A stretch of 55,314 bases of DNA from assembly GCA_002839285.1 (NCBI GenBank), contig PGXT01000022.1, positions 1-55,314 on the forward strand. The letters run 5' to 3'. Below are positions 18,727-27,927 of this stretch, piece by piece. Position numbers and translations under genes: made by a program. Source of the DNA: Spirochaetae bacterium HGW-Spirochaetae-5. Its GTDB lineage: Bacteria > Spirochaetota > UBA4802 > UBA5550. Below the pieces are notes generated by a model, which saw nothing but the letters and a program-made list of their open reading frames with translations, did no database searches and was not told the DNA's origin. The stretch's first letter is position 1; the number at the start of each line of letters is the position of its first letter.

Positions 18727-20079
18727 ATGCTTTTCACGTATGTGCTGGTTTTTCTGTTTTTTATCATATTTGCCGTTATAATGCTGTATATTCTCAGCGT
18801 ATATGTTCTGCCGAAAAAGATCGAAGAGATTCAGAAGATGATCGATGCGGGGCAGACTAAGCTTGCTATAAAGAAGTTAACAGAAATTCTTGAAAAAGAT
18901 GACCGTAATCCCTATGCTCATTACCTCCTTGCTGAAGCTTACAGAGCAGAAGGGAATAATCAGTATGCTGTACTGGAATACCGGCAGGTTTTAAAATTCG
19001 GAAGATTTGATGATAGAATAAGAGAAGTTACAATAAGGTCAACTCTGGCAAAAATATATAAAGATAAAAAATCCTTTGAAGATGCAAGAAAAGAGCTGCT
19101 GATTCTTACAAAACTCGATCCTGCGAATTTTGAAAACTTTTTTGAGCTTGGAATGATTTCTTATGATCTGGGACAGCTTGATAAGGCTACAAATTATTTT
19201 AAAAAGAGCGCTTCGCTGAATGCAAAGCATGATAAATCATTTTTTTATCTGGGGCATATTTATTATAAAAACGGGGTTTATGCCGATGCAAAGCAGTATT
19301 TTCTTAATACTATAAAACTCGATCCTTTGAATTATCAGGCTCACTATTATCTCGGGCTGGTTCTCAGGCAGCAGGGTGATTACGAATGGGCTCTGAAGGA
19401 ATTTGAAGTATCAATGAAGAGCGATGATCTTAAGGTCAAGAGTCTTCTTGCCCGCGGTACATGTTTTATGGAGAAGTCACAGTTCCCGAAAGCTGTAATG
19501 GAGTTTGAGAGAGGGGTTAAATTTGCCAAGAAGGGGAGCGATACAGAGCTTAATCTGAGATACTTCCTTGGCGAGTGCCAGGAGAAGATGAGAGATGTAC
19601 ACTCGGCAATTATCAACTGGGAAAAAATTGCAGAGGTGAATCCCAAATTCCGTGATATTCAGGCCAAACTTGCCTCTTATGCCGAATTCAGACAGGATGA
19701 CCGGATAAAGGACTTTATGATTGCGGGACTTGCCCAGTTTGAACATATGACAAGAAAGATTGTTGCCGGGATGAATTATAATATAACCGATATTGAAATA
19801 ATCAGCGATACAGAGATAGAGATAATGGCCATTGAAACTGAAGGGAAATGGCGTAACACCAGACAGTCAAATAGGATTATAAGAATAAACAGAACAACTG
19901 AAACTCTCCCTGAATCGTATTTAAGACAGATACATGAAACCATGAGGCCGAGAAACGCCACAAGAATTTTGATTATAACTACAGGTGAAGTCTCCCCTAA
20001 GGCGCTTGAATTTGCGAATACAAGACCTATTGAGATAAAGGGGAAAACTGAACTTGTGGAGCTTCTGAAAAAAATATAA
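18727..20079 (+). CDS. Membrane-anchored TPR protein with degenerate Mrr-like domain (paralogue 1)
   Basis: A 450-residue protein. One N-terminal helix (YVLVFLFFIIFAVIMLYILSVYVL) anchors it with the bulk cytoplasmic. About seven TPR units span residues 35-330. The last 125 residues follow the Mrr/restriction-endonuclease-like fold pattern (FEHMTRKIVAGMNYNITDIEII, then RILIITTGEVSPKALEFAN). The usual catalytic Asp and QxK are replaced (EIEIMAIE; RIIRINR), so nuclease activity is unlikely and a binding role is more plausible. The gene at 25430 has the same layout. It ends 5 nt before the next gene. Confidence 0.8.
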   Translation: MLFTYVLVFLFFIIFAVIMLYILSVYVLPKKIEEIQKMIDAGQTKLAIKKLTEILEKDDRNPYAHYLLAEAYRAEGNNQYAVLEYRQVLKFGRFDDRIREVTIRSTLAKIYKDKKSFEDARKELLILTKLDPANFENFFELGMISYDLGQLDKATNYFKKSASLNAKHDKSFFYLGHIYYKNGVYADAKQYFLNTIKLDPLNYQAHYYLGLVLRQQGDYEWALKEFEVSMKSDDLKVKSLLARGTCFMEKSQFPKAVMEFERGVKFAKKGSDTELNLRYFLGECQEKMRDVHSAIINWEKIAEVNPKFRDIQAKLASYAEFRQDDRIKDFMIAGLAQFEHMTRKIVAGMNYNITDIEIISDTEIEIMAIETEGKWRNTRQSNRIIRINRTTETLPESYLRQIHETMRPRNATRILIITTGEVSPKALEFANTRPIEIKGKTELVELLKKI

Positions 20080-20084
20080 ATGAC

Positions 20085-21899
20085 ATGAATCATATTAAAA
20101 GTCTGCTGAGATCAATTCCATTTCTTCTTCATTTGAATAATGAGGAGGCCGGGTTTTTTTTCAAGTCGGGAAGGCTGGTATCCGTAAAGAAGGGTCAGCT
20201 GGTCGATATAAAGAAAACCAACTCTCTAAATATCGTAATCGATGGTATTTTTGAAATTGAATCGATTGCAAACAGAGATATTGTCTACCTATCCCCTGGA
20301 TCCTTTTTCGGATTTTTACCCTTTATTGAAAATAGAAAAAAGGGGAATGTAAAAGCCCTTGTGGACTCCCGTATATTTGTAATCGGCGAGGATGACCTGT
20401 ATAAACTCTTTCTCATGTCCCACAAGGCCCTGAGGGGTTATATTAAGATGATAGAGAGTCTTAATTTTGACATTTCAGACACCGGAAAAAAATATTTTGA
20501 TATTAAAGGTAAAGTGGTAACTGTTTTCGGAAGAAAAGCTGGTTCCGGTAAAACACTTCTTTCCTCTCTTCTCGGGTTGTCGCTCTCTTCTGAGAAAACT
20601 ATTATTCTTGATTTATCATACAGCGGCAGATCTCTCTTTGATCTGTTCAAACAGAAACTGACTGTACCCCTTTCGGAAAAAGATAATGAAAGGGGAGCGG
20701 CGGAATCGCTTCTGAATGACCGTATTGTAAAAGTGACTGAGAACCTTCATCTGCTTAATATCTCATTTTCGGCCAGAGTCAAGGTAGATCCCGCAATTCT
20801 CGGGCCGATACTCTTTATACTCTCCAGGGAATATAAATATATAATAGCCGACCTTTCAGATAGTGATGAAGATCTTAGAAATAAAGTTTTTGAACAGACC
20901 GATTTTGTATTTGCACTGACGAATTCAAAAAAAGAGATGGATGATGTGCAGCCGGTTTTTGACAGGCAGCTTAAAGAGGGGCAGCGTGTTTTCTATGTAA
21001 GGAATAATTTTTTCTCGAAAGAGAGCGGGCAGTTTTACGGCGGTTACATTTTTAACAGATGTGAAGGATTCAGTGACGGCGGCGATATCTCTATACTCGA
21101 AAATTATATTTCAGAGGGGAATCTCGATAATTACCGTAATGCTGTAACTTCGAAAAACAGAGCCATTGTAATACAGTCAGCACAGCATGAATCTGTATTG
21201 CTCGGTTCACTTATGCTTGAATTGAATAGAGGGGGGAAAAAGTTTGATTATATATACTCCTCATCCTACAGCTATTTTTTATCCTGTATGCTTCTTCTTT
21301 CTGATGATTATAATACATTAAATGAAAATATGAGGAAATTCTTCTCATCCGGGCAGTTCAATAAAATATTTGAAATCACTTTCCCTGATAAATATATATT
21401 TAAATCGGGCAGAATACTTAAGTATGCAATGGAGCTTGCCGGCTCCAAACGGGCGGAGATGTTTCAATCTTTACCTCTTTCCTATATCAATTCCGGGGGG
21501 ACACAGCGGATATTCAGCACCGGATCACTTCAGCACCTCATGGCGGCCAGTCTTGTTTCGGAACCTCTATGTGAACCGGTAGAATTTGCCGGTGAAAAAT
21601 GCTCATCGGGATTTCCCGGAAATTATGTTCTCCCTTCGCACCTGTTGCGAACGGAAGCTGCTGAAATATTTAATATTACAATCAGTAATAAAGAACATCT
21701 CTCTTTTACTGATGATAAATACAGCAGTTTTTTTATTAACTATCTTGAAGCATCTGATGAGCAGAAGATGCCGCAGCCGGAATATATGGACCAGTCTAAA
21801 AAATTAGTACTTGAAGTATCTGAAAACGAGTTTAAGTTTGACAAAATTTCTGAAAACACAATGAAGTTATCTCAAATGCTGATAGCTAGAATCATTTAA
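20085..21899 (+). CDS. cNMP-binding / MinD-like ATPase / degenerate patatin fusion protein
   Basis: A 604-residue protein. Residues about 10-125 resemble a cyclic-nucleotide-binding domain (VDIKKTNSLNIVIDGIFEIE, then VYLSPGSFFGFLPFIE). Residues about 141-335 are a SIMIBI/MinD-like domain with an intact P-loop GRKAGSGKT (149-157), TIILDLS and YKYIIADLS. Residues about 350-545 align with patatin/NTE phospholipases (KKFDYIYSSSYSYFLSCMLLL for the GTSxGA region; FSTGSLQHLMAASLVSEPL; FPGNYVLPSHLLRTEAAEIFNITISN). The catalytic GxSxG Ser and the DGG Asp are not conserved, so lipase activity is probably lost. The order matches neuropathy-target-esterase-type proteins, whose middle domain is normally P-loop-poor. 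It may sense a nucleotide and bind lipid or partner proteins. Confidence 0.7.
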   Translation: MNHIKSLLRSIPFLLHLNNEEAGFFFKSGRLVSVKKGQLVDIKKTNSLNIVIDGIFEIESIANRDIVYLSPGSFFGFLPFIENRKKGNVKALVDSRIFVIGEDDLYKLFLMSHKALRGYIKMIESLNFDISDTGKKYFDIKGKVVTVFGRKAGSGKTLLSSLLGLSLSSEKTIILDLSYSGRSLFDLFKQKLTVPLSEKDNERGAAESLLNDRIVKVTENLHLLNISFSARVKVDPAILGPILFILSREYKYIIADLSDSDEDLRNKVFEQTDFVFALTNSKKEMDDVQPVFDRQLKEGQRVFYVRNNFFSKESGQFYGGYIFNRCEGFSDGGDISILENYISEGNLDNYRNAVTSKNRAIVIQSAQHESVLLGSLMLELNRGGKKFDYIYSSSYSYFLSCMLLLSDDYNTLNENMRKFFSSGQFNKIFEITFPDKYIFKSGRILKYAMELAGSKRAEMFQSLPLSYINSGGTQRIFSTGSLQHLMAASLVSEPLCEPVEFAGEKCSSGFPGNYVLPSHLLRTEAAEIFNITISNKEHLSFTDDKYSSFFINYLEASDEQKMPQPEYMDQSKKLVLEVSENEFKFDKISENTMKLSQMLIARII

Positions 21900-21912: not shown

Positions 21913-22395
21913 TTGAGATCTGCAAAAACAAATGCTTTTCAGGCGGCGGTTTTAATCTCCGGAGTCATGTATATTATTATCGGCGCTGCCTTTATATTCT
22001 CACCCCTTACAATTTTCCAATTTTTTGCTGAGAATGTTTCTGAAAACTGGATTGACCTTGTCCGGGATCATGAACTGGTTGCACCTATGTATTTTACCGT
22101 AAGGGCCTTCGGTGTTCTTCTACTGACATCAGGTTTTCTCATGATTATGCCGCTTTTTGATCCATTGAAGTATCGCGGGATTGCATATCTTAATGGTGTT
22201 CTATTCCCTTTTATCTCCGCAGTGATACTGTTGAAAAACGGGCTTTTTATCGGAGTAAAAAGGGATGATTCTATCCATGGCAATTATATGCATTTGCCCA
22301 TTGTCATATTCGGGATAATTCTGAGTGTTGTATTTTTAATAGTACTTCTGACTCTTCTCTTAACCAGGAAAGACGCAAAAGAGGGCAGGGAATAA
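21913..22395 (+). CDS. Four-helix membrane protein, unknown
   Basis: A 160-residue protein beginning at TTG 21913 behind GAGAGGG. Four hydrophobic helices (about 12-35, 58-80, 93-112, 128-150) with short loops; the tail TRKDAKEGRE is cytoplasmic. No catalytic motif is seen and no family is recognised. It lies 13 nt after the cNMP/MinD/patatin gene and is probably co-transcribed with it, so it could be a membrane partner. Confidence 0.7.
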   Translation: MRSAKTNAFQAAVLISGVMYIIIGAAFIFSPLTIFQFFAENVSENWIDLVRDHELVAPMYFTVRAFGVLLLTSGFLMIMPLFDPLKYRGIAYLNGVLFPFISAVILLKNGLFIGVKRDDSIHGNYMHLPIVIFGIILSVVFLIVLLTLLLTRKDAKEGRE

Positions 22396-22530: not shown

Positions 22531-22875
22531 ATGGATCTGAATTTAAAAAAGACAGGGAATGATATTACAATATATTTAGAGGGAAGACTTGATGTTCATC
22601 TTTCCGCTGATATAGAAAAAGAGATTAATAAGCTCATTACCGCCGAACCGTCCTGTAATTTTGTCCTTAATCTGAAAGATGTAGAGTATATGAGCAGTTC
22701 AGGTCTTCGAATTTTTGTTTCAACCATGAGAATTCTTAAAGAGAGTAAAAGAAAACTTGTACTCTGCAATATGAACAATGCAGTTAAAAAAATATTTGAA
22801 GTCGTAGAATTAACAGATATGTTTGATATTTTTAACTCTGAAGCCGAGGCTCTTGATTTTCTGAAAAAAGCCTGA
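22531..22875 (+). CDS. STAS-domain anti-sigma factor antagonist
   Basis: A 114-residue SpoIIAA/RsbV-like protein. The phospho-acceptor region is VEYMSSSGLRIFVSTMR (about residues 50-66), with the regulated Ser in SSSG. Such proteins release a sigma factor or another target by binding a kinase-type anti-sigma factor, which is not found in this window. It has an ATTGGAG ribosome site and precedes the 740-residue gene by 10 nt. Confidence 0.92.
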   Translation: MDLNLKKTGNDITIYLEGRLDVHLSADIEKEINKLITAEPSCNFVLNLKDVEYMSSSGLRIFVSTMRILKESKRKLVLCNMNNAVKKIFEVVELTDMFDIFNSEAEALDFLKKA

Positions 22876-22885
22876 TCAGCGGTTT

Positions 22886-25108
22886 ATGTTGAAGATTAGA
22901 GAGAGTAAAAAAAAACAGGGAAGTTTTTTCAGTAATCTTTTAACTGATTATAAAAGTCTGATCGATCCTGATAAGGAGAATATTCTGTTAGATGCTGTTT
23001 CTCTTGGTATGGGGAACAGGATTGCTTATCAGAAGTTTTCCGGTTTTACCTGGCCTTTGTGGTTGTCGGAAGCAGAGGATTTTTATTCTCTCAATTACCG
23101 TTCTACACCCGATCCTCTGCTCCTGAATTCCAGTTTCCGGGAGTGGCAATCTTTTACAAATTTTTTTTCCAGCGAAGAACTTCAAATTGATAGAATCGGA
23201 ATGATCTCAGGTCCGGGGAATTCCTCATGGTCTCTGGAATTCTGGTATTTCAGTAATGGCATTCTTTATCATCCTCAGAAACATTTAGAACATATTAAAC
23301 CTGAAAGAGATTATAAAACAGGCGGGATTCGTATTACGGGAAATCTGGGCAATTCTCATTTTAAAGAGAGTATAGCCGGGGCAAAATCTGACATAAATGA
23401 AGCTCTGGTTTCTTATGAAATTAATTCGGGTAATGCAGATGATCTGCTCTTTGCGGTGGTGCGTCCCTATAATTCTATTGCAATAGGCGGTGTAAGCAGT
23501 ATCAATTTTGATCCGTCGGGATTGTTTTTGAAGATTGACGGTAAACAGGTTGTTGCTTTTGAGAAAAAGCCCGATTTTATCGAGACCGGATCGGGTATTA
23601 CAGGTGATGCGGACTGTTACTCCAGAGGTTTTAACGGTTCTGTCAGCTGTAATTACGGCATGGCGTCTATGGCCATGGGGTTTACTCTCAAGAAAGGGGC
23701 AAATGTTCTCAACTTAAGGATTGCCCTGGACAGCAGCAGGTCATTGTCACCATATAAGTTTGATTATAGCAAGTCCTTCCGAGAATTTCAGAATTTTTCT
23801 ATAATGAGAATGGGTGAAGGTTTGAAAATGGAAGTTCCTGATGAAAATTTTATAAAAAATTTCCATCAGTGCAAGATAACTCTTTTTAATAATAATTCAG
23901 GTGATTTTAATACTGAAAAAATCGAAGGGTTTAGAAATCTCTATTTTTTCTGTTACTCAATGAACAGAGCGGGCCTTGAAGTGGAAGCAGAAAAGCTTTT
24001 TAACCGGATGCTCGATAAATTTAATTATAACATCAAGAGTCCTGAATATATACCGGTAATCAGCGCATCCTGGCTGCTTAATTCGTTTTATGAGTGTTAT
24101 ATTCATAAAAGAGACCCGGAATTTCTCCAGGGTTATTTCCCGGTTATAAGAAAGATCGGGGATTATATATATAAGTTCTCAACAAGCATGCATTCTGTCG
24201 CGCAGCTTCCTGGTAATACCCATAGTAATCTTTATATACGGGAAGCCTCTGAGTCCGATTTTATGATAATTCTCTCTGCCATGATAAATGTTTCTTATCT
24301 TTCAAGGTGCATGGGGATTTTTGGAGATGAAGTAAAGTATAAGAATGAAGCCGACAGGATTCAGTCTATAATAAAAAATGTGATAGAAAAACGGAGAGCA
24401 ATCTCTCTGGAAAATTTTTCATCTTTCAGTTCTTTAGTTTCTCTACCTGATGCAGTTGTTTCGGGATATAAAGAGGATGATTACAATGACTTTTTCTCAA
24501 GTTTTACAGATGAGAGGAATTTCCCGATATTAGAACGTCTTTCGGGAATTGATCTTTTTTCAAGCGCGCTGGTTTTAATTCATTTAATCTCTCTTAAAGA
24601 TCATAGATTTAATCATTTCAGTAAAAAGTTTTTTTCATTGATTGATGATTATTTTATACTCCCGGAGTTTATAGACCCTGTTCTTAAAAGAGGGGTGAGA
24701 GGGGATGGTAATATGAAAATTATTGCCGCTCTTATTCTTATTATTCAGCGGAACAGAGTTTTTCTTGATCGTCCCGACCGGCTTGAGCTTTTTACAGTAC
24801 CCGAAGCTCACTGGTTTAAACCGGGTAACAGAATTAAAGTCGATGACGCTCTGACAAGATACGGTAAAATCTCATTTTTATCGGAAGCTTCCGATGATGA
24901 GATAAAAATAACTTTCATAGGACTCCCTAAATTTATACCATCAGACATTATGATAAATTTACCCTTTGAAACTTCAATAATAGAATCGGATGATTTTATA
25001 CTTAAAAGAAAATCCGGAAATAGCTATATTATCAACGGCTGGCCTGCAGTAATTAGATTCCCATTGAATAAAAAGAATAACCCGGCCGGGACCTCAATTC
25101 AGCACTGA
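22886..25108 (+). CDS. Large protein, possible six-hairpin-glycosidase-like fold
   Basis: A 740-residue cytoplasmic protein with no signal peptide. The N-terminal third is beta-rich (about 75-310). Residues about 330-640 are helical with repeated helix-hairpin spacing (FRNLYFFCYSMNRAGLEVEAEKLF; SASWLLNSFYECYIHKRDPEFL; SESDFMIILSAMINVSYLSRCMG), which recalls (alpha/alpha)6-barrel glycoside hydrolases or phosphorylases. A small beta domain ends it. No confident catalytic acid pair was picked out, so function is open. It follows the STAS gene directly. Start ATG 22886 has only a weak ribosome site. Confidence 0.5.
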   Translation: MLKIRESKKKQGSFFSNLLTDYKSLIDPDKENILLDAVSLGMGNRIAYQKFSGFTWPLWLSEAEDFYSLNYRSTPDPLLLNSSFREWQSFTNFFSSEELQIDRIGMISGPGNSSWSLEFWYFSNGILYHPQKHLEHIKPERDYKTGGIRITGNLGNSHFKESIAGAKSDINEALVSYEINSGNADDLLFAVVRPYNSIAIGGVSSINFDPSGLFLKIDGKQVVAFEKKPDFIETGSGITGDADCYSRGFNGSVSCNYGMASMAMGFTLKKGANVLNLRIALDSSRSLSPYKFDYSKSFREFQNFSIMRMGEGLKMEVPDENFIKNFHQCKITLFNNNSGDFNTEKIEGFRNLYFFCYSMNRAGLEVEAEKLFNRMLDKFNYNIKSPEYIPVISASWLLNSFYECYIHKRDPEFLQGYFPVIRKIGDYIYKFSTSMHSVAQLPGNTHSNLYIREASESDFMIILSAMINVSYLSRCMGIFGDEVKYKNEADRIQSIIKNVIEKRRAISLENFSSFSSLVSLPDAVVSGYKEDDYNDFFSSFTDERNFPILERLSGIDLFSSALVLIHLISLKDHRFNHFSKKFFSLIDDYFILPEFIDPVLKRGVRGDGNMKIIAALILIIQRNRVFLDRPDRLELFTVPEAHWFKPGNRIKVDDALTRYGKISFLSEASDDEIKITFIGLPKFIPSDIMINLPFETSIIESDDFILKRKSGNSYIINGWPAVIRFPLNKKNNPAGTSIQH

Positions 25109-25375: not shown

Positions 25376-25429
25376 TAGCCGAAGGGTGAAATTTCTTAGT
25401 TAAAAAAAGTGATTATAAATGAGAGGAAT

Positions 25430-27001
25430 ATGCTTGTTCCATTTCTTATAACAGCGATTATTATTCTGGGAGCGATAGTTTTTTATCTCTACTATCTTGC
25501 ACCTAAGCTTAATCCGAAGAATAAAGCTGAAATTCTTCTGAACGAGAATCGTATAGATGAAGCAATTGTTGAGTTTAAAAAAGTTCTTGAGCAGCGTCCC
25601 CTTGATTCAACTATTCACTGGAGGCTGTCAGGACTCTATTTGGGTCAGGATAAAATTGATCTGACAATAAATCATCTTGAAAATATTATAGAAATAAACC
25701 GGTATAATGCTGATGTTGAAAAGGGGGATGTTTATAAACTTCTTGCAGATCTTTATCTTCAAAGAGGGGATAAGCTAAAGGCTTTTGAAAAATTTTATGA
25801 ACTTCTGAAAGAGTATCCGAGTGATTCTGAAGCTTTGTATCATGTGGGTTTCATGTCGTTAGGACAGGAGATATTTGAAACAGCATATAGACATCTTGAA
25901 ACTCTCTCCCGGTTAAAAAAGAAGAATTTTGAAATACTATTCGGAGCAGGAATTGCAGCCCTGCAGAGTCAGAGAACTACGGAGTCAATTGCACTTTTTG
26001 GAGAAGCTCTTTCACTTCAGCCCGATTCAGATATAACAAATATTGCCATGGCCTTTGCTTTATACCGTAAAAAGGACTTCAAGACTGCTGTCAATTATGC
26101 AAAACATATTGTTGATAATTCAAAAGATGAGGATGCTCTTCTGGTCGGGAAACGGCTGCTGGCTTTTTTATATATTGAAACAAAAAAGAATGCCATGGCA
26201 ATAAAACTATTTGATGAACTGAAAGAGTACTGTGTGCAGAATGACTACGATGAGGAATTAAAAGTTATGCTGTACGATTTCGGATTTGCTAATCTAGTTG
26301 ATGACAGGAAAGAAGAGGCATATGCCGTCTGGAATCAGCTTTATCAGAAAGAGAGAAATTTCAGGAATGTGCTGGATCTTGTTACAAGGCTCAGGAAAGA
26401 GATGGAAATAAAACCCGGAGCAAAGCCCGATGACTCCAAGCCTGTGATAACCGAAGCCGGCACATGGAGAGATAAGGCATTTCCCGACAGGTTTTTATGG
26501 AATATATGCGGCTTGAAGAGCGAGCAGAATATGGATCTGCAGAGTATTATTGCGGCAGGGAGAACTTCAGGATCGAGGGAGAGAAAAATTTCCGATGATT
26601 CCGAAAGTCCAAAAGAGTCTGCTTCAGCGATACAGGAGATGTATAAACTTGATGCTGAAAGCTTCAGAAGCGTATCATACCGGGTATGTGAAAAATTAGG
26701 ACTTGTTATTGATGAAATTATGACAACATATCGCGAGTCAGACGGCGTTGATTTTATGGCTACCCAGAAAGAGGGGAAGGCTAAGACGCTTATATGGGTC
26801 AGAAGATGGAAAGATGCCAATATCGGTGAGATACCGCTTAGAAATTTTGCTCAGGCGATAAATGATACCAAGTCTAAGCAGGGGTATTTTATTACAACAT
26901 CTCCTTTGTCACCAGCCGGCGAGAGTGCGCTGAAGGGGCTTAGCAAGGTAACAGTTGTTTTCCCTGAGGAACTTGCCGGATTATTAAAAGGACTGGTTTA
27001 G
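25430..27001 (+). CDS. Membrane-anchored TPR protein with degenerate Mrr-like domain (paralogue 2)
   Basis: Start ATG 25430 (GAGAGGA upstream) is preferred over an in-frame GTG at 25409. About 523 residues. An N-terminal helix (VPFLITAIIILGAIVFYLYYL) is followed by about six to seven TPR units, a low-complexity linker near 380-400 (SGSRERKISDDSESPKESA), and an Mrr-like end (FRSVSYRVCEKLGLVIDE, DGVDFMATQKEG, TLIWVRRW, GYFITTSPLSPAGESAL). The catalytic Asp position is kept in GVDF, but QxK has become WVRR, so activity is doubtful. Same architecture as 18727-20079; the two probably arose by duplication. Confidence 0.8.
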   Translation: MLVPFLITAIIILGAIVFYLYYLAPKLNPKNKAEILLNENRIDEAIVEFKKVLEQRPLDSTIHWRLSGLYLGQDKIDLTINHLENIIEINRYNADVEKGDVYKLLADLYLQRGDKLKAFEKFYELLKEYPSDSEALYHVGFMSLGQEIFETAYRHLETLSRLKKKNFEILFGAGIAALQSQRTTESIALFGEALSLQPDSDITNIAMAFALYRKKDFKTAVNYAKHIVDNSKDEDALLVGKRLLAFLYIETKKNAMAIKLFDELKEYCVQNDYDEELKVMLYDFGFANLVDDRKEEAYAVWNQLYQKERNFRNVLDLVTRLRKEMEIKPGAKPDDSKPVITEAGTWRDKAFPDRFLWNICGLKSEQNMDLQSIIAAGRTSGSRERKISDDSESPKESASAIQEMYKLDAESFRSVSYRVCEKLGLVIDEIMTTYRESDGVDFMATQKEGKAKTLIWVRRWKDANIGEIPLRNFAQAINDTKSKQGYFITTSPLSPAGESALKGLSKVTVVFPEELAGLLKGLV

Positions 27002-27012
27002 AATTAAAAAAT

Positions 27013-27927
27013 ATGAACACTCCGCAAACTGCTGTTGTTAAAATTACCGCTATATCTTCAAATAATTATTTCAAGGTGAGCCGGAAGAACTATCCGGATA
27101 ATCTCATTTACTCTCTGAAGCACTCCGGGATGCTTGAAATCCCTTTTCTTATAAAAACAGACTCAGGTTATGACATTTTTACATGTCATAACCGTATACA
27201 GATACTGCGTGATTCCGGTATGGAGGAACTGACATGTTTTATACTCGGCAAGGCTGACGTTGAGTTATTCATGAAGCATGTTTCATTAAAAGCATACAGA
27301 AACGAGCTTGGTCCTTACGGTAAACTGAAAGTACTGTCGGTACTTAATACCTACTTTAAAACAGATCAGCAGACAGTTAAAAATTACTGCATTAAAGTTC
27401 TTAAACTCCCTCTTGATGTAATTGAAAACGGGGTCTATCTCAGTAAGATCCTCAGTTTCCCGGCATCACTGATTGATTATCTTGATGAAAAAGATATAAG
27501 TTTTAAAACAATAAAAGACCTGTCCCGGATGCCTGATGATTGGCTGAGTCTGATCAACAACTGGCTGAATAGTCTTCCGGTAAGGGTTAATATTTTTAGA
27601 ATGCTGTGCGATTATCTTTTTGATATCTACAGGCGGGGGGATAACATCCCCATTCTCGAAATTTCTTCATATAGCGATGACAAAGCTTTGTACGATGCGG
27701 TTTTCCGTATCAGGCACCCTGAGTTTTCCATGTTGAAGAGCAGATCGGAGAGTATAATAAATGATTTATCCAGAGGGGGGATATCTGTCGATTTCCCTGA
27801 GTATTTTGAAAGAAAAAATTTTACTATAAAGCTTGATATAGATAAACGGAGCGATTGCGAACTGCAGCTGAAAAAAATCATAGATATAGATGCTGAAAAA
27901 ATAAAAGACCTTATATCTCTGTTGTAG
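27013..27927 (+). CDS. ParB/sulfiredoxin-like N-domain protein
   Basis: A 304-residue protein. Residues about 20-85 (LIYSLKHSGMLEIPFLIKTDSGYDIFTCHNRIQILRDSGMEELTCFIL) follow the ParB N-terminal pattern, with the GERR box replaced by CHNR. A helical middle region (about 95-190) could hold a KorB/ParB-like HTH; the C-terminus is not recognised. It lacks the canonical chromosome-partition ParB features and there is no parA or parS nearby, so it is not the replicon ParB. It starts 11 nt after the TPR/Mrr-like paralogue and is probably co-transcribed with it. Confidence 0.65.
   Translation: MNTPQTAVVKITAISSNNYFKVSRKNYPDNLIYSLKHSGMLEIPFLIKTDSGYDIFTCHNRIQILRDSGMEELTCFILGKADVELFMKHVSLKAYRNELGPYGKLKVLSVLNTYFKTDQQTVKNYCIKVLKLPLDVIENGVYLSKILSFPASLIDYLDEKDISFKTIKDLSRMPDDWLSLINNWLNSLPVRVNIFRMLCDYLFDIYRRGDNIPILEISSYSDDKALYDAVFRIRHPEFSMLKSRSESIINDLSRGGISVDFPEYFERKNFTIKLDIDKRSDCELQLKKIIDIDAEKIKDLISLL

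Follow-up and report, generated by a model that had tools for sequence, protein, structure and literature searches.

The window, a 55,314-nucleotide stretch of DNA from Spirochaetae bacterium HGW-Spirochaetae-5, carries on its forward strand a gene for a three-domain protein resembling the neuropathy target esterases (NTEs), which we refer to as pseudo-NTE. The gene, its domains and its conserved neighbours are as follows.

18727..20079, + strand: TPR repeats and an Mrr-like C-terminal domain, directly upstream gene (Pfam; adjacency across the phylum; 5-nt gap)
20085..21899, + strand: pseudo-NTE gene, 604 aa; cNMP-type domain, MinD-like P-loop domain and patatin fold without catalytic dyad (ORF, alignment, AlphaFold2 model, fold matches, Pfam on 29 members)
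20085..20474, + strand: cNMP-binding-type domain, residues 1-130 (PF00027, E 3e-6, exactly at cut-off; 28/29 members)
20505..21155, + strand: MinD/ParA-like P-loop domain, about residues 141-357 (MinD fold match; ParA-like profile match)
20529..20555, + strand: Walker A GRKAGSGKT, residues 149-157 (G155 in 29/29, K156 in 23/29, S/T157 in 29/29)
21153..21896, + strand: patatin fold, predicted to be catalytically dead, residues 357-604 (PlpD fold match; profile match to active cNMP-patatin proteins)
21255..21272, + strand: residues 391-396, the old nucleophile elbow, YSSSYS where active relatives have GxSxG (hhalign; column counts)
21606..21617, + strand: residues 508-511, SGFP where active relatives have DGG with its Asp (hhalign; S508 in 27/29, G509 in 28/29, Asp in 0/29)
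21913..22395, + strand: multi-helix membrane protein of about 150 aa, conserved downstream, no known family (synteny)
22531..22875, + strand: STAS anti-sigma factor antagonist, conserved downstream (PF01740, E 3.5e-21; TIGR00377 above cut-off; synteny)
22886..25108, + strand: conserved protein of 740 aa, no confident family (synteny; Pfam)
25409..27001, + strand: second TPR and Mrr-like protein (Pfam; synteny)

The pseudo-NTE reading frame starts with ATG and continues for 604 codons, with zero internal stops in the ORF listing. The gene is genuine, since 38 of the 39 relatives searched carry it (29/29 among the good-quality genomes). Nearly all of these copies are single and full-length, with identities of 24-69%. 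Pseudo-NTE is single-copy and near-universal in one uncultured order of the Spirochaetota, to which the host genome belongs; the named relatives from the scan are environmental 'Spirochaetes bacterium' MAGs. A contig search with the single window protein as query returned zero matches, and a profile of a subset of the family led to eight environmental Spirochaetes contigs. The end-to-end alignment of 29 members contains 24 invariant columns. All column counts given here refer to these 29 aligned members, with the register set by hhalign alignment to active relatives.

Pfam detects only the cNMP domain in the window protein alone, and the other two domains emerge only with the family members (cNMP in 28/29, Patatin in 17/29, ParA in 13/29). 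An AlphaFold2 model built from the family alignment is confident along the whole chain (pLDDT 88, pTM 0.90). Pfam across the members, the model and the fold matches all place a cNMP-binding-type domain N-terminal to the patatin fold, as in NTEs of the PNPLA6-7 type. This bears out the NTE-like domain order suggested in a preliminary description of the locus, which had been made by eye from the letters. The Ser-Asp dyad and the GGGxR/KG oxyanion loop of the NTEs are absent from the pseudo-NTEs. In the cNMP-type domain, the two usual residues of the phosphate cassette seem not to be kept across the family: the ribose Glu (position 77) is found in just 3/29 pseudo-NTEs and the phosphate Arg (position 85) in 2/29, although the alignment has a one-residue gap here and an Arg or Lys at 84 or 86 may stand in for the latter.

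The middle domain had been described as MinD-like in order and as having a full Walker A, and both observations hold. Residues 142-357 of the model superpose on MinD (3r9j) with a Z of 20.3, at 2.9 Å over 207 residues (VIA-align), and the middle-domain profile matches the solved ParA-like structure 3k9g with an E of 8.5e-8. With MinD, ParA and FleN, all SIMIBI ATPases, pseudo-NTE shares the fold (Z 18-20), the P-loop, the Walker B Asp and the first Asp of DxD. Both Asp residues (D256 and D176, respectively) are found in 29/29 members, as is N307, which follows strand 6. Unlike these ATPases, the pseudo-NTE family conserves neither the signature Lys of the deviant Walker A (KGGxGKT) nor the second Asp of DxD. 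The signature position, residue 151, is Lys in 3/29 members and ranks among the most variable (92nd percentile), and the second Asp is replaced by Ser in 28/29 (DxS). In MinD and ParA, these two residues serve hydrolysis and dimer sensing. Pseudo-NTE further differs from MinD in that its P-loop domain is fused between two others and that there is no MinD-type C-terminal membrane helix.

At the level of motifs, the MinD-like domain has retained what the binding of a nucleotide and Mg would call for, namely the P-loop, the first Asp of DxD, the Walker B Asp and the invariant N307, whereas the residues used in hydrolysis are not kept. The Walker A motif, complete in the window protein, is incomplete in part of its relatives. 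At position 156, the P-loop Lys itself, the 29 members have K (23), T (3), N (2) or G (1); the six without Lys are the product of several changes along the tree, and the divergent orthologues L075, L077 and L083 are wholly devoid of a P-loop. Nucleotide binding thus cannot be essential in every member of the family. The preliminary description had raised the possibility that the protein exchanged its lipase activity for that of an ATPase. An active MinD-like ATPase of this kind would account for the MinD fold, the complete Walker A of the window protein, the Lys kept by 23/29 relatives and the two invariant Asp residues. However, it is at odds with the unconserved signature Lys and the Ser in DxD, with the repeated loss of the P-loop Lys and with the most divergent orthologues having no P-loop, and we consider it unlikely. 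Given the variable signature position and the Ser in place of the second DxD Asp, binding of a nucleotide without fast hydrolysis is more likely than a shift of activity to the ATPase.

The C-terminal 250 residues have a patatin fold, on which the preliminary description would have fallen had it been missing. Residues 357-604 of the model match PlpD (5fya) with a Z of 18.9, at 4.3 Å over 236 residues (VIA-align), and the match to CapE-type bacterial patatins reaches a Z of 18.4. Pfam Patatin is matched by 17/29 relatives at E<1 (best 1.5e-8), and the pseudo-NTE profile aligns with active cNMP-patatin proteins with E-values down to 7e-19. In contrast to PlpD and the CapE-type patatins, pseudo-NTE has neither dyad nor oxyanion loop. 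The earlier statement that the patatin Ser and the DGG Asp are not conserved stands in full for the Asp, which is missing in 29/29 members (SGxP in its place). It stands only in part for the Ser: the nucleophile position is S in 21 members, A in 4, G in 3 and C in 1, and the window protein retains it as S394. The oxyanion glycines are missing in 29/29. No Ser-Asp catalytic dyad is therefore left in the family.

The former active-site loops are nevertheless among the most conserved parts of the patatin domain: by entropy, Y391, S393, S508, G509 and P511 each rank in the bottom 5%. This points to selection still acting on that face or pocket, albeit not for catalysis. Alternatively, the catalytic centre could have been relocated, for example with S393 as the new nucleophile, which would leave the patatin domain active as an esterase or acyltransferase. 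S393 adjoins the old nucleophile and is Ser in 27/29 members, and the conservation of the surrounding loops would fit as well, but there is no conserved, family-special Asp, Glu or His near the old Asp loop and the oxyanion glycines are universally gone. We regard a relocated centre as decidedly improbable.

NTE is known as a target of nerve poisons, NTE/PNPLA6 is a human disease gene, and the linker between the regulatory and catalytic halves of the protein is poorly understood. In Pfam, this linker is represented by NTE_Ploop (PF24179). Of 296 genomes of the phylum, 14 have a protein that scores above the cut-off of this model; one of the 14 (G027) falls within the same order, and its active NTE (L188) shares the genome with a pseudo form. 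NTE_Ploop was not found in the 20 nearest genomes, and none of the 29 pseudo-NTE members matches the model at E<1. Proteins of the NTE family with NTE_Ploop, cNMP and Patatin domains (L180-L189, same phylum) have the domain order of pseudo-NTE and a linker that is likewise of Rossmann/P-loop type. Their motifs are the reverse of those of pseudo-NTE: the bona fide NTEs of Spirochaetota lack a Walker A but carry the active patatin motifs GGGGARG, GxSxG and DGG.

When only the linkers were aligned with hhalign, pseudo-NTEs and true NTEs were weakly related (P 1.4e-4, probability 53%; column shuffles P 0.10-0.36). A second comparison concerned the spirochaete patatins with one cNMP domain (L071, L072, L076, L078-L082), which share size and domain order with pseudo-NTE and match its full-length profile with 99.6% probability over residues 2-541. 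Unlike pseudo-NTE, they keep GGGGAR, G-x-S-x-G and DGG, and their linker has no P-loop. The linker-only alignment with these proteins is weak (P 0.045). The modelled structure of an active relative with cNMP, linker and patatin parts, compared by strand order only, has its strands in the same succession as pseudo-NTE minus one strand-helix stretch; the fold search with this relative was filled with patatin and cNMP matches. The NTE linker and the MinD-like domain thus likely share descent, which falls short of proof. The suggestion in the preliminary description that the linker of the NTE family derives from a MinD-like ATPase is plausible, and the homology that it implies finds moderate support in the linker alignment and the strand order. 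The notion is not a new one, as the name NTE_Ploop implies that the idea of a P-loop in the linker was already current. No relevant work came up in literature searches on MinD-like or P-loop features of NTE, nor in those on pseudo-enzymes of the patatin type.

The surroundings of the gene are conserved across the order, where the sequence M16-M16-greA-TPR-pseudoNTE-membrane-STAS-740aa-TPR2 is repeated, although spurious opposite ORFs mask a few of its positions. In all genomes of the order that yielded both genes, the TPR-Mrr gene lies at most about 60 nt upstream of pseudo-NTE, and in most genomes the small membrane protein is encoded between pseudo-NTE and the STAS gene. The Mrr-like nuclease domains of 18727-20079 and 25409-27001 have a catalytic D-QxK pattern that looks degraded by eye, and the second TPR protein matches the Pfam model 'inactive restriction endonuclease' below cut-off. 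As the pattern looks degraded in both TPR proteins, several enzyme domains of the operon may have gone out of use. The 740-aa protein (22886-25108) matches glycosyl hydrolase family 95 alone, and below threshold (E 0.04). Further downstream, 27013-27927 codes for 304 aa without a Pfam match, and the relative of this protein in L094 resembles a ParB-type N-terminal domain by eye.

In other spirochaete families, the same locus is variable. The TPR-Mrr gene precedes strongly decayed orthologues of 419-580 aa in families f22, f38, f41 and f46. Five decayed pseudo-NTEs of 419-476 aa that adjoin TPR-Mrr (L160-L162, L173, L174) are recognised by profile and position only, and the one decayed version scanned with Pfam (L160) gave no match. 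In Treponema and its allies, TPR-Mrr is followed by a metallophosphoesterase (named by eye), and in further families by another gene, both unrelated to pseudo-NTE. In family f34 (L177-L179), the genes after TPR-Mrr code for a GAF-SpoIIE-HATPase protein and then for a STAS protein very similar to that of 22531-22875, an arrangement that links the neighbourhood to partner switching. We hypothesise that pseudo-NTE has a role in partner switching, mainly because it fills the slot that is held in f34 by this RsbU-like regulator. The genome of the window has a large partner-switch repertoire of its own, with 29 SpoIIE/GAF-type and 15 STAS matches, so that gene order is the sole basis for assigning this particular STAS protein as a partner.

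In other families, pseudo-NTE has diverged extremely and whole motifs are missing (L075, L077, L083 and the 419-476 aa versions), which could also mean that it is a decaying NTE relic without present function. A relic would, however, be broken or lost. In almost all genomes of the order, the gene is instead an open reading frame present once and in conserved gene order, and 24 alignment columns are invariant among 29 diverse proteins, which makes this explanation very doubtful. A CpaE/TadZ-like pilus or septum-site ATPase, hinted at by a weak TIGR03815 match (15.3 bits, E 0.008), deserves next to no credence given the curated cut-off of 154 bits, a conserved neighbourhood free of pilus genes and a C-terminal patatin fold that is foreign to that family.

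Taken together, pseudo-NTE is probably a switch or scaffold protein and not an enzyme. The explanation we favour, with some reservation, is that of an NTE-like pseudo-enzyme in which a non-hydrolysing or slowly hydrolysing, ATP-binding MinD domain acts as a switch, and the patatin and cNMP domains offer surfaces to the operon partners. In this three-domain chain, the patatin fold has been stripped of its Ser-Asp dyad and oxyanion loop. The MinD domain, going by its motifs, would bind ATP with slow or no hydrolysis, and its nucleotide would set the state of the switch. TPR-Mrr, the small membrane protein and the STAS antagonist may then dock onto the patatin shell and the cNMP-type domain. The site of action would probably be the membrane, within a partner-switch signalling module.

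More tentatively, pseudo-NTE could be an NTE-derived, ATP-set scaffold that has given up all catalysis, forms a spirochaete-specific complex with TPR-Mrr and STAS, and keeps the P-loop that active NTEs have lost. If this bolder version were true, a MinD-like ATPase would stand at the root of the regulatory linker of NTE. The locus exposes an uncharacterised, near-universal operon in one order of the Spirochaetota. With a bacterial NTE relative that has a P-loop in its linker and its lipase switched off, it becomes testable whether this linker began as a nucleotide switch.
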